A DNA stretch of 46,873 nt from the NCBI GenBank assembly GCA_024275145.1, contig JAJRZR010000002.1, positions 1 through 46,873 of the forward strand, read 5' to 3'. The stretch comes from Deltaproteobacteria bacterium (GTDB taxonomy: Bacteria > Desulfobacterota > Dissulfuribacteria > Dissulfuribacterales > QOAL01). The translations under genes were made by a program, and so were the position numbers. Shown here piece after piece: positions 4,217 through 21,858 of the stretch; position 1 is the stretch's first letter; each line of letters opens with the position of its first letter. The notes under the pieces were generated by a model. That model had not been told where the DNA came from. It searched no databases and was given only the letters and a program-made list of their open reading frames with translations.

Positions 4217-6754
4217 ATGATAGGCAACCTTTTAACAAAAGTATTTGGAACTAAACACGACAGGGAGCTCAAGAGATTAGCACCCATTGTCACCCAGATC
4301 AACAAACTTGAGCCTGAAATCAAGGGATTGTCCGATGCGGAGCTCAAGGACAAGACCCCTGCTTTCAAGGAGCGGCTGGCAAAGGGCCAGCCACTGGACG
4401 AATTGCTTCCAGAGGCCTTTGCAGTGGTACGAGAGGCTTCTCGCAGGGTGCTTGGAATGAGGCACTATGATGTCCAATTAATAGGCGGGCTTGTACTTCA
4501 TCAGGGAAAAATCGCTGAGATGAAGACCGGAGAGGGTAAAACGCTGGTTGCAACCCTCCCGGTTTACCTCAATGCACTTACCGGCCGAGGTGTCCATGTA
4601 GTAACGGTCAATGATTACCTTGCGAGGCGTGATGCGGAATGGATGGGCCAGGTCTACAGGTTCTTAGGCCTGAGTATTGGCGTCATCGTAAACGACCTTG
4701 ACGAAGACGACCGGAAAAAGGCGTATGATTCAGATATAACATATGGCACCAACAACGAGTTTGGCTTTGATTTCCTCCGCGACAACATGAAATATTCCCT
4801 GGAGGACATGGTTCAGCGGGAATTCTACTATGCGATCGTGGACGAGGTTGACAGCATTCTCATCGATGAGGCCCGGACACCACTCATTATCTCCGGTCCC
4901 TCTGATCAGGCTACGGATCTCTACCTGCGTGCCAATCAGGTCATTCCGTACCTTAAGAAGGAAACCGATTATACGGTTGATGAAAAGGCCAGAAACGCCA
5001 CTTTTACAGAGGCAGGTATTGCCAAGTGTGAAAAACTGCTAGGCGTTGACAACCTGTATGATCCTGCCCAGACGGAATTGTTGCATCATGTTCAACAGGC
5101 CTTGAAGGCCCACGTTCTGTTCAAGAGGGACGTGGATTATATAGTAAAAGATGGTCAAGTGATCATCGTCGATGAGTTTACCGGGAGATTGATGCCTGGC
5201 AGGCGCTACAGTGACGGCCTACACCAGGCTCTTGAGGCCAAGGAGGGGGTCAAGGTAGAAAGCGAGAACCAGACCCTGGCATCTATAACCTTCCAAAATT
5301 TCTTCCGCATGTACGAAAAGCTCGCTGGCATGACTGGTACTGCCGATACCGAGGCAGCAGAGTTCAAGAAGATCTATGACCTCGATGTAGTAGTTATCCC
5401 AACCCACAAGCCCATGGTCCGTAAAGACCATCCTGACGTGGTCTTCAGGACGAAAAAGGAAAAATTCGAGGCAGCGGCCAAGGAAATCAGGAGACTTCAC
5501 GAAAAGGGGCAACCTGTACTTGTGGGAACCACCAGTGTAGAGAACTCTGAACAGCTTTCTTCCATATTGAAACGCATGGGAATTCCCCATGAAGTCCTTA
5601 ACGCAAAACATCACTAAAGGGAGGCTGAGATCGTTGCCCATGCAGGGGAACGCGGAAGGGTAACGATCGCCACCAATATGGCTGGCCGTGGTACGGACAT
5701 CGTGTTGGGTGAGGGCGTAGCAGAGGTCGGGGGACTCCATATCCTTGGTACGGAGAGGCATGAATCCCGGCGCATAGATAACCAGTTGAGAGGACGTTCA
5801 GGTAGGCAGGGTGACCCCGGCTCATCAAGATTTTATCTGTCACTGGAGGACGATCTTCTTCGTATTTTCGGATCTGACAAGATATCCGGGATCATGAACA
5901 AGCTGGGTATGGAGGAGGGAGAACCCATAGAACATTCCATGCTTTCAAAGGCCATTGAAAATGCCCAGCGCAAGGTCGAGGCCCACAACTTCGAGATCAG
6001 GAAGCATCTTCTTGAATACGATGACGTAATGAACAAGCAGCGGGAGGTCATATACTCCCAGCGAAAACAGATCATGGCCGGGGAGGATCTAAGGGCAGAT
6101 CTGCTCGACTTCATCGATGAAATAGCTGAAAATCTCGTTGCCACGTATGCAGACGAGAAGAAGGCCCCCGAGGAATGGGATTGGAAGGCGCTCAAAGAAC
6201 GCCTGAAAGGTCAGTTCGGTGTGCACCTCTTTATCCCATCTGAAGAGAGATCCGAGCTGACGCCCGAGGGGCTCAAACAAGAGATCTCCAGCACGGCGAA
6301 GAAGGCGTACGAGGCCCAGGTAGAACTTTTTGGATCCGAAGATATGGCCCAGGTAGAACGGTTTATAATGCTCCAGACCCTTGACACCCTTTGGAAGGAT
6401 CACCTTCTCAATATGGATCACCTGCGGGAGGGGATCGGTTTGAGGGGCTATGGACAAAAGGACCCCCTGCAGGAATACAAACGTGAAGGCTATGATATGT
6501 TCATGGCCATGATCCAGCGCTTCAGAGAGGAGACCCTCAGCATCCTGTTACGTATCCGTCCCATGCGCCAGAGTGAAGTAGAGGAACTAGAAATCAAGAG
6601 AAAGCAGCGTCAGGAACAGCAGATGCAACTCAGCCACGGCGAGGGAGAAACGAAGAAGAGGCCGGTGAAGCGTAAGACAAGAAAAATAGGGAGAAACGAG
6701 CCGTGTCCCTGTGGAAGCGGCAAGAAGTACAAGAAATGTTGTGGAAAGAAATAA
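4217..6754 (+). CDS. secA: Preprotein translocase ATPase SecA, interrupted by an in-frame TAA
   Basis: Motor ATPase of the Sec translocon. One reading frame of 846 codons covers the whole family, but codon 467 (5615-5617) is TAA. Before it: Walker A TGEGKT (104-109), DEVD (209-212), the preprotein cross-linking domain, and NBD2 up to HEVLNAKHH. After it, without a shift, come [22 protein letters not shown], the arginine-finger region [16 protein letters not shown], the helical scaffold and wing domains, and the C-terminal zinc/SecB tail [13 protein letters not shown]. Most SecA proteins have Glu or Lys at the interrupted position, so GAA or AAA changed to TAA would explain it. The first start is an ATG with a weak GAGCTGGA site. 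SecA is normally essential, so error, readthrough or a second copy must be considered. The downstream open part could otherwise begin only at an internal codon near 5678. Confidence 0.93.
5615..5617 (+). other. In-frame TAA inside secA
   Basis: The codons read CAC TAA AGG, giving NAKHH-stop-REAEIVA; the conserved family sequence here is NAKHH(E/K)REAEI or similar. The frame is identical on both sides, so this is a single-codon nonsense change and not a frameshift. SecA continues for 379 further residues. Confidence 0.95.
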
Positions 6755-18672: not shown

Positions 18673-19122
18673 TTAGGGCGTGTTTCCATGGCAACTTATT
18701 GCGTCGTAAAGGATAGCCGGAAGCCTTACGAGTTTGCCGGTACCATCGATGGCCGCGTGTTTGGTATAGCCGGTAGCCAGCATGCGGTTTGAGGACACCA
18801 AACGGATTTCGTGGCAAAAACTGATGGTCACCCGTGAAAATGATTTGATCCTGGTCATTATGTCGAGTAGATCATCGTAACGGGCCGGAGATTTGTATCT
18901 GCAATAGCTTTCCGTTACAGGTAATACAACCCCTTGATCCTCCAGTGCCTTATATGATAGAGAGAGGATGGTTCTCATGAACTCGGTCCGGCCGATTTCA
19001 AACAGTCTGAAGTAATGGCCGTAGTACATCACCCCCCCGGTATCGGTGTCTCCATATATGACACGGTAGCGAACCGTATGGACGGGCCCGCCGCCATCAT
19101 AAAGGCCTATGTCCCTGCCCAT
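18673..19122 (-). CDS. Acyl-CoA thioesterase, YbgC/FadM (4HBT hot-dog) family
   Basis: A 149-residue hot-dog-fold thioesterase expected to cleave acyl-CoA. The family signature is clear: VRYRVIYGDTDTGGVMYYGHYFRLFEIGRTEFMR (about residues 17-50), containing the catalytic Asp and the GVMYYGHY stretch. It is followed by the strand YCRYKSPARYDDLLDIMTRI. The ATG at 19122 lies one base after the TAG that would end a full-length apgM, so it is the third gene of the hom-apgM-thioesterase operon. No Tol-Pal genes, the classical YbgC partners, are nearby, so the physiological substrate is open. Confidence 0.9.
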   Translation of the reverse strand: MGRDIGLYDGGGPVHTVRYRVIYGDTDTGGVMYYGHYFRLFEIGRTEFMRTILSLSYKALEDQGVVLPVTESYCRYKSPARYDDLLDIMTRIKSFSRVTISFCHEIRLVSSNRMLATGYTKHAAIDGTGKLVRLPAILYDAISCHGNTP

Positions 19123-19123
19123 C

Positions 19124-20437
19124 CTATTTTTTTTTGGGGTCCAATTCCACGTACCGGGGTTTTATTCCAAGGAATCTCGACATGACCTCGTAACCCTTTT
19201 CCAGGACAAGGCCGGTCTTTTAGGCAGACTTTTCACTGAATGAGGCAGCAAGGTTCTCTTTCGGGTTGAGGCTGTCATAGATTACAAAGGGAACCGGTCC
19301 TGGGGTATGGGTCTTGAATCTTACCGGCGTAAAGTGATCCGTGGCCACCAGGATCCTGTATGAGCCGCCCATATCCTTCAGGCCATCCATTATTGGGCCT
19401 ACCACTTCCTTGTCGAATCGTTCGATCGCCTTGACCTTTTCCTTTATGTCGCCCATATGTCCAGCCTCATCCGGTGCCTCCACGTGCACCACTACAAGAT
19501 CCTTTTCCTTGATCTCCCTGAGGGCCGCCTTTGCCTTGCCCTGATAGTTTGTATCCAGGAAACCAGTGGCTCCAGGTACCTTGATGATATCAAGGCCGGC
19601 CCAGACTCCGATTCCCTTGATCAGGTCAACAGCGGCTATAACCGATCCTTTTATATCGTAGAGCTGCGGTATGGTGGCCATGACCGGGCGTGTTCCCTGT
19701 CCCCATGGCCATAATGAATTGGCTGGCTTCTTCCCTTGTGCCCTGCGTTTTTCATTGATTGGGTGGCGATGGAAGAAGGTTATGGCCTTAGTCAGGATAT
19801 TGTAGAGAAGGGGTTCATCCTCATAGATGTGCCAGGCCTCTGTGACGTCCATCCCAGTAAAGTCATGTGGAGGGACAGTAGCAATACCTTCCGGTCCACC
19901 CTTCCACAACAGGAGATGTCGATAGCTGACCCCTGGTACAAGCTCGAAAGAGCGGCCGGATACCAATGGGGCTAGATCTTCAAGCAGCGCATGGGCCTCT
20001 TCCATGCTTATATGGCCCGCACTGTAGTCCTCCATATAGACCCTGCCCTCCCTGAACTGCAGTGTGACCAGATTGCACCTGAAGGCCACATCTTCCGGGT
20101 TCATCTTGACACCCATGGCAGCGGCCTCAAGCGGCCCTCTTCCAGTATAATATTTCTCCGGGTCATAACCCATGAGCGACATGTTTGCTACATCGCTGCC
20201 AGGGGGAAATCCTTCTGGAATGGTATGCAACAATCCAAAATCCCCCATGCGTGCCATTAGATCCATGGAAGGCGTCCTGGCGGCTTCAAGGGCGGTTTTT
20301 CCCCCCAGGCTTTCTATGGGCAGATCGGCCATGCCGTCACCAATCAGTATCACATACTTGGAGGAAGGAAGCTCTATCCTTTCTTGGGAATCTTCTGGAA
20401 ATTCCTGACCGTTTTTTGTAGATTTTTGCTTTTCCAT
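19124..20437 (-). CDS. apgM: Cofactor-independent phosphoglycerate mutase (ApgM), interrupted near its end by an in-frame TAA
   Basis: Interconverts 3- and 2-phosphoglycerate in glycolysis/gluconeogenesis; the archaeal-type iPGM of the alkaline-phosphatase superfamily. IGDGMADLPIESLGGKT holds the first metal ligand, GSDVANMSLMGYDP the catalytic Ser, HVEAPDEAGHMGD and TDHFTPVRFKTH the remaining metal ligands. The frame meets TAA at 19220-19222 after SFSEKSA, but 31 more codons follow in frame: KTGLVLEKGYEVMSRFLG, IKPRYVELDPKKK and then TAG at 19124-19126, one base before the next gene ATG. Family members end in a similar G-x-E-(L/V)-M-x-x-(L/F) segment, so the true gene end is probably 19124. 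Truncation would leave 405 residues with all catalytic residues. RBS AGAAGG precedes the ATG at 20437; hom lies 101 bases upstream. Confidence 0.92.
19220..19222 (-). other. In-frame TAA near the end of apgM
   Basis: On the minus strand the codons read TCT GCC TAA AAG ACC. The 31 codons after the TAA continue the family C-terminus, and the next stop abuts the following gene, which argues that the TAA replaced a sense codon, probably Lys (AAA) or Glu (GAA). Confidence 0.75.
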
Positions 20438-20538: not shown

Positions 20539-21858
20539 CTATTCTTGTAATGACGTAAGGTCTTCTATTCTAATAATCATTGGTTGATCTGAGACAACCT
20601 CAAGGGCATCGATTTCCTTCAACGCCTTTTGGACATCTGCCTCCCTAGCCTCATGCGTAAGCATTACTATAGGAACCGATGAACCTTCTCCTCGACCCTT
20701 CTGGACTACAGAGGCAATGCTGATGTCCCTTTTACCCAATATCCCGGATATCTTGGATAAGACACCGGGGCGATCCTTTACGGAGAACCTGAAATAATAC
20801 CTTCCCTGTATCGACGCAGGATCCTTGATGCCGGCAGTGGATATTGAGTCCAGAGGAAGCCCTAGGGATGACATGCGCTTGACTGCTCCTGAAATTATAT
20901 CCCTGGCTATGTCCACTACGTCTGCAACCACGGCGCTGCCTGTTGGCATCTGTCCCGCACCAAGGCCGTACAACATTATCTTGCCCACTGAGTCACCTAT
21001 GAGATAAAAGGCATTATATGCCCCTCTAACCTGTGCCAGTAAGTGATCAGAGGGAATCATTGTGGGATGGATCCGAAGTTCGAGGCCGTCTTTCCCATCG
21101 CGGCCAATGGCGAGCAGTTTAATGGTATAACCAAATTCCCTGGCAAAGGAGATGTCAAGCGGTTTCAGCCGGGAGATACCCTCGGTATATATGTCCGAAA
21201 GGGTTATCTTTTTCCCAAAGGAAAGAGTTGACATTATAACAAGTTTGTGGGCGGTATCAACACCTTCTACATCGTAGGTGGGATCGGCTTCTGCATAGCC
21301 AAGCCGTTGTGCCTCCTCAAGTGCCTGATCAAAGGCCATTGTCTCACTCGTCATTCTGGTAAGGATATAGTTTGCTGTCCCATTCATGATACCCATGACG
21401 GTATGGATCCGATTCGCGACCAATCCTTCCCTGACCGCCTTGATTACAGGGATACCACCACCTACACTGGCCTCAAAACCAACTTCCACCCCCTTTAGGG
21501 CGGCCGCCTGGAAAATCTCATAGCCATGTTGTGCCAGTAATGCCTTGTTAGCCGTAACCACATGTTTCCCTTTGCTGACGGCCTTCAATACGAAAGTCCG
21601 GGCAGGCTCAATGCCCCCTATAAGTTCAATGAAGATATCTATCTCCGGGTCGTCTAATACTGTATCCAGGCTATCGGTCATGATCTGCTGGGGAACCGGG
21701 AAACCTCTATCGGTAGATATATCCCGGTCACAGATCCATTTCAGCCTTATGGGGCTTCCCACTCGTTTCTGTAACATGTCCGTCTCTTCAAGGAGAATCC
21801 TTGCCGTTCCGCTTCCAACGGTTCCAAAGCCGAGCAAACCTATATTTATGGGTCGCAT
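20539..21858 (-). CDS. hom: Homoserine dehydrogenase
   Basis: NAD(P)-dependent reduction of aspartate semialdehyde to homoserine on the route to threonine and methionine. The Rossmann motif GLLGFGTVGSGTARIL is at residues 6-21. The catalytic domain contains VGFEASVGGGIPVIKAVREGL, IMGIMNGTANYILTRM and AEADPTYDVEGVDTAHKL, all hallmark segments. A C-terminal ACT domain (YYFRFSVKDRPGVLSKISGILG onward, about 350-430) should confer threonine feedback. The 439 residues are complete. The ATG at 21858 follows CAGGAG by 9 bases. It is first in the operon hom-apgM-thioesterase, a pairing frequent in Desulfobacterota. The 440-base divergent region upstream has a 6-bp hairpin (AAGGCC/GGCCTT, 21888-21904) 30 bases before the start. 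Confidence 0.97.
   Translation of the reverse strand: MRPINIGLLGFGTVGSGTARILLEETDMLQKRVGSPIRLKWICDRDISTDRGFPVPQQIMTDSLDTVLDDPEIDIFIELIGGIEPARTFVLKAVSKGKHVVTANKALLAQHGYEIFQAAALKGVEVGFEASVGGGIPVIKAVREGLVANRIHTVMGIMNGTANYILTRMTSETMAFDQALEEAQRLGYAEADPTYDVEGVDTAHKLVIMSTLSFGKKITLSDIYTEGISRLKPLDISFAREFGYTIKLLAIGRDGKDGLELRIHPTMIPSDHLLAQVRGAYNAFYLIGDSVGKIMLYGLGAGQMPTGSAVVADVVDIARDIISGAVKRMSSLGLPLDSISTAGIKDPASIQGRYYFRFSVKDRPGVLSKISGILGKRDISIASVVQKGRGEGSSVPIVMLTHEAREADVQKALKEIDALEVVSDQPMIIRIEDLTSLQE

Follow-up and report, generated by a model that had tools for sequence, protein, structure and literature searches.

An in-frame TAA near the end of an apgM-family gene in a deltaproteobacterial draft genome, probably one of several base errors

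Described systems and the locus

Peritrich ciliates read TAA and TAG as glutamate, and we know of no earlier case of a bacterium that does so. The same reading of TAA and TAG is described for the trypanosomatid Blastocrithidia (PMC12153298). In-frame stops in bacterial protein-coding genes were studied by Belinky et al. 2021 (PMC7918605), who kept only stops shared by at least two species, thereby limiting artefacts. The gene family closest to the one considered here is ThrB2, represented by TIGR02535 (PF01676 with PF10143), and the pattern that goes with ThrB2 is described in PMC9026213.

Here, we have analysed a stretch of 46,873 nucleotides (the window) from a draft, probably metagenome-assembled, genome of a deltaproteobacterium, in which a gene of the apgM family carries an in-frame TAA. 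Like the cases of PMC7918605, this nonsense codon lies in a gene that is otherwise under purifying selection and whose tail is conserved; unlike those cases, which are shared by at least two species, it is private to one assembly. Like ThrB2 genes, the gene has a full-length TIGR02535 match, an adjoining hom and no ThrB over the cut-off in the genome, and it departs from them in that a stop falls 31 codons short of the end. The features are as follows.

19124–20437, minus strand: apgM-family gene at its full original length, counting the terminal TAG (TIGR02535 match; intact orthologue in the nearest sister genome, L033)
19220–19222, minus strand: in-frame TAA, where the sister codon is GAA (Glu) (frame reading and sister comparison)
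19127–19219, minus strand: 31 post-stop codons conserved at the protein level (differences from the sister; alignment with the tails of 40 homologues)
19124–19126, minus strand: TAG at which the gene originally ended (same end point in the sister, there a TAA, one base before an ATG)
18673–19122, minus strand: 4HBT thioesterase-like gene, next in the operon (same junction in the sister)
20539–21858, minus strand: hom-like ORF (homoserine dehydrogenase), upstream of the apgM-family gene (named from reading the sequence, without a profile run)

The segment after the TAA

The apgM-family frame starts at 20437 on the minus strand and runs through AASFSEKSA to the TAA, after which it stays open for the 31 codons of KTGLVLEKGYEVMSRFLGIKPRYVELDPKKK and is closed by the TAG at 19124–19126. 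A single G separates this TAG from the ATG of the thioesterase-like gene at 19122. The initial annotation had read the frame in the same way, with a TAA at 19220–19222 followed by 31 codons and a TAG one base before the next ATG, and its coordinates proved correct. It had also placed the original stop at 19124, and this is borne out, as no homologue ends at the TAA codon and the tail is conserved against the sister.

A profile search with read-through of the TAA showed that TIGR02535 spans profile positions 2–396 of 397 straight across the stop. Including the tail lifts its score to 542.9 bits from 526.5 (curated cut-off 446.3), and the scores of NF003242 and TIGR00306 gain similarly. When the tail is left out, 378 of the 397 TIGR02535 positions remain and about 18 are lost. 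The closest solved structures are archaeal-type phosphoglycerate mutases (e.g. 2zkt), for which the aligned residues, 27–423, extend beyond the TAA.

The alignment with homologues that the initial annotation had proposed was run with 40 distinct sequences of 42% to 96% identity. All 40 continue beyond the TAA codon, by 18 to 46 residues, and the column that corresponds to the TAA holds E in 17 sequences, K in 9, R in 5, A in 3, S in 2 and four singletons. We looked for the opposite pattern as well, namely close homologues that all end at SFSEKSA and are followed by unconserved bases, and found it neither among the 40 homologues nor in the sister. In the relatives searched, no stop was found within a full-length apgM match. 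A true gene end at SFSEKSA, followed by a frame that is open by chance, would agree with the ORF list, in which a 405-residue ORF runs up to the TAA; with the profile match across the stop, the tails of the homologues and the unchanged residues described below, and with none of the 40 homologues ending there, we regard this reading as refuted.

The sister locus comes from a Deltaproteobacteria metagenome-assembled genome (contig WFZW01000070.1), whose apgM-family protein is 96% identical; it has GAA at the position of the TAA, and its junction with the following gene is the same. Over the 31 codons of the tail the two genomes differ by 7 synonymous and 0 nonsynonymous changes, so that all 31 residues are identical, whereas 129 synonymous and 14 nonsynonymous changes fall in the 405 codons ahead of the stop. 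The relaxed constraint after the stop that marks a pseudogene was therefore not seen, and the comparison indicates that the tail has been constrained like the remainder of the gene, at least up to a very recent time. The initial annotation had held that the TAA replaced Lys or Glu; the GAA of the sister and the column over the 40 homologues, in which E is the commonest residue, point to Glu, and the replaced codon was most likely GAA, which a single G-to-T change turns into TAA. Selenocysteine recoding was rejected for this site, where the codon is TAA and is not conserved.

ApgM is a family label, and family and context make it probable that the gene encodes a homoserine kinase of the ThrB2 type. 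The curated cut-off of TIGR02535 ('proposed homoserine kinase') is passed along the whole profile, the hom-like ORF lies directly upstream on the same strand, and no canonical ThrB over the cut-off was found in the genome (best match 34.2 bits, cut-off 168.25); a homoserine kinase is therefore the more likely function. A second apgM-family protein (C95, L002), whose best profile is TIGR00306, yet below the cut-off, could serve glycolysis.

A real and recent nonsense mutation would end the protein at residue 405 with the loss of the last 31 residues, either tolerated or as a mark of a young pseudogene. The loss would be confined to the C-terminal end, with most profile positions kept, a second apgM-family protein is present, and PMC7918605 reports that in-frame stops occur widely in bacterial genes and are short-lived. 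We nevertheless consider such a truncation unlikely, since the tail is present in every homologue aligned (n = 40), the supply of threonine probably depends on this gene in a genome with no ThrB over the cut-off, and stops in indispensable genes of the same assembly call for a common cause. Of the truncated apgM that the initial annotation had described, the in-frame stop thus stands, while a biological truncation is improbable in an assembly with many similar stops.

In-gene stops across the genome

We screened about 1.46 Mb of the 2.65-Mb genome for same-frame coding stretches that are split by a single stop and compared them with the sister; stops with short flanks escape the screen, so that the true number may be higher than the 18 in-gene stops, apgM included, that were found here but not in the sister. 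A 19th candidate, a TAG in glgA, has no sister coverage. At the 18 stops the sister has Glu 11 times, Asp twice, and Lys, Gly, Ser, Trp and Leu once each, as listed below.

5615–5617, plus strand: second non-conserved in-frame TAA of the window, inside single-copy secA (frame 4217–6754); GAG in the sister, GAA in an outgroup
TAA, sister Glu: apgM, secA (the TAA at 5615–5617), fbp, nifB, purL, a chemotaxis receptor and an ORF on L120
TAG, sister Glu: valS, ddl, an EnvC-like M23 peptidase and a GH57 protein
TAG, sister Asp: a biotin-carboxylase-type protein
TAG, sister Asp: a TolC-like protein
TAA, sister Lys: trmFO
TAA, sister Gly: single-copy smc, in a poorly conserved stretch
TAG, sister Ser: a hydrolase (69% identity)
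TAG, sister Trp: a UDP-sugar epimerase
L145:14515, plus strand, TGA, sister TTA (Leu): an Hsp20-family protein, near its start

No stop within a full-length secA was found in the other relatives searched. The biotin carboxylase, GlgA, SMC, Fbp, ValS, TrmFO, NifB, Ddl, PurL and epimerase products match family profiles across their stops. The Lys at the trmFO site and the Trp at the epimerase site are common to the sister and the outgroup, and the TGA of the Hsp20-family gene is the sole non-conserved in-gene TGA found. Since the stops are TAA, TAG and one TGA at several residues, no single reassigned codon covers them all.

Breakage of secA, valS or smc is not something that a cell should survive, and for secA and valS the loss is expected to be lethal. 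These genes being indispensable, the bases must be wrong unless translation passes through the stops. One way of reading them through would be a natural suppressor of low efficiency in a free-living bacterium, a tRNA that inserts Glu at TAA and TAG, so that changes from GAA or GAG to these codons are tolerated and accumulate by drift even in secA, valS and apgM. If the bases are real, this would be, to our knowledge, the first bacterium to read TAA and TAG as Glu. The residues in the sister are in keeping with such a suppressor: besides the 11 of 18 sites with Glu, this lineage could have had Glu at four more (two Asp, one Gly and one Ser in the sister), and a single non-conserved in-gene TGA was found. 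As in Blastocrithidia, where TAA and TAG are read as glutamate (PMC12153298), the stops fall mostly at Glu positions, and the precedent of a trypanosomatid shows that this reading exists.

Compared with Blastocrithidia, however, our genome has few such sites, not all of them Glu; a cognate tRNA was not found, the bacterial release factors are intact, and most genes end in TAA or TAG. No TTA or CTA anticodon occurs in the 34 typed members of the 36 tRNA hits in the genome, and the remaining two hits match tRNA-Ser, although some tRNAs expected in any bacterium are absent from these hits, so that the set is incomplete and the lack of a suppressor in it is no proof. Release factors 1 and 2 are both encoded by intact genes (prfA and prfB). 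TAA and TAG terminate 900 of 1579 called coding ORFs with no shift in stop usage, and orthologous stops do not drift towards TGA (15 changes from TAA or TAG to TGA, 17 in reverse). Of the 17 in-gene TAA and TAG sites with sister coverage, 11 have Glu, but two others fall on a Trp and a Lys that are conserved. Codon reassignment was rejected on the tRNAs, the release factors and the continued use of TAA and TAG as terminators. Missense tests, with which suppression is compatible, could not separate it from base error with certainty; because of this and the Glu excess we keep a small share for suppression, which we judge very improbable and rank below base error and real truncation.

With the read-through tests unfavourable, base errors or damage give the better reading, and as cells that lack secA or valS should die, we judge the stops to be substitution errors or damage. 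For the TAA at 19220–19222 we put the probability of a single-base substitution error or a DNA-damage artefact in the draft genome at roughly 70%. This is supported by the conserved tail, by the GAA of the sister and by the set of 18 stops, which includes single-copy secA and smc as well as valS, purL, ddl and trmFO. That the bases are wrong, as opposed to real stops, is something we infer rather than observe; in the organism the TAA at 19220–19222 is most likely absent. The true codon would then most likely be a Glu codon, and the gene in the living organism would probably end at 19124–19126.

Substitutions point the same way with little force. With one outgroup, protein-changing substitutions on this genome's own lineage number 429 versus 357, and synonymous third-position substitutions 1623 versus 1597. 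This mild protein-changing excess is as expected of unselected errors, but weak at about 2 standard errors; a rate of about 0.07% per site agrees with the missense asymmetry, which is not significant. Against errors, Glu is over-represented, with 11 of the 12 cases compatible with G:C-to-T:A changes, where 54% is expected from a strand-symmetric G:C-to-T:A spectrum weighted by codon usage (p ~0.007). An error bias for G then A would account for most of this excess. As the asymmetry is not significant and Glu is in excess, we do not claim a type of error, and in particular not a pure strand-symmetric G-to-T sequencing error.

Also against errors, indels are not elevated: there was one frameshift in 203 comparisons, and an indel-rich assembly was rejected on this count. 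This frameshift is located in the L120 ORF that bears one of the 18 stops (L120:570–1987, minus strand), which is intact in the sister and may be a true pseudogene here.

The genome is rated 100% complete and 0.58% contaminated, yet nonsense bases are scattered in its essential genes, where they are invisible to completeness scores and can be mistaken for a change of code or for gene loss. In the apgM-family gene, the TAA is an annotation trap that would lead to the call of a pseudogene or of a product lacking 31 residues.

TGA sites and a selenocysteine-type tRNA

Four in-gene TGA sites were left out of the 18. Three are TGA in the sister too, in SelD, a TlpA-like protein and a cytochrome, and the fourth is what we take to be the selenocysteine position of a formate dehydrogenase. 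In a multihaem cytochrome-like protein, the in-gene TGA (L107:6602, plus strand; sister L216), also TGA in the sister, is a candidate site for a selenoprotein or another recoding. The TGA at L123:7530 (plus strand; sister L223) falls on the first Cys of a CxxC in a thioredoxin-like (AhpC/TSA) protein and is conserved in the sister, so that this protein is likely a selenoprotein.

On contig C4 of the same genome, a selenocysteine-type tRNA (L052:1798–1885, minus strand; Rfam tRNA-Sec, 53.7 bits) lies just after a 1388-codon ORF with an iron-sulphur oxidoreductase-like start. Its anticodon is GCA (Cys) instead of TCA, and it may be either a selenocysteine tRNA for a Cys codon or one more single-base error.
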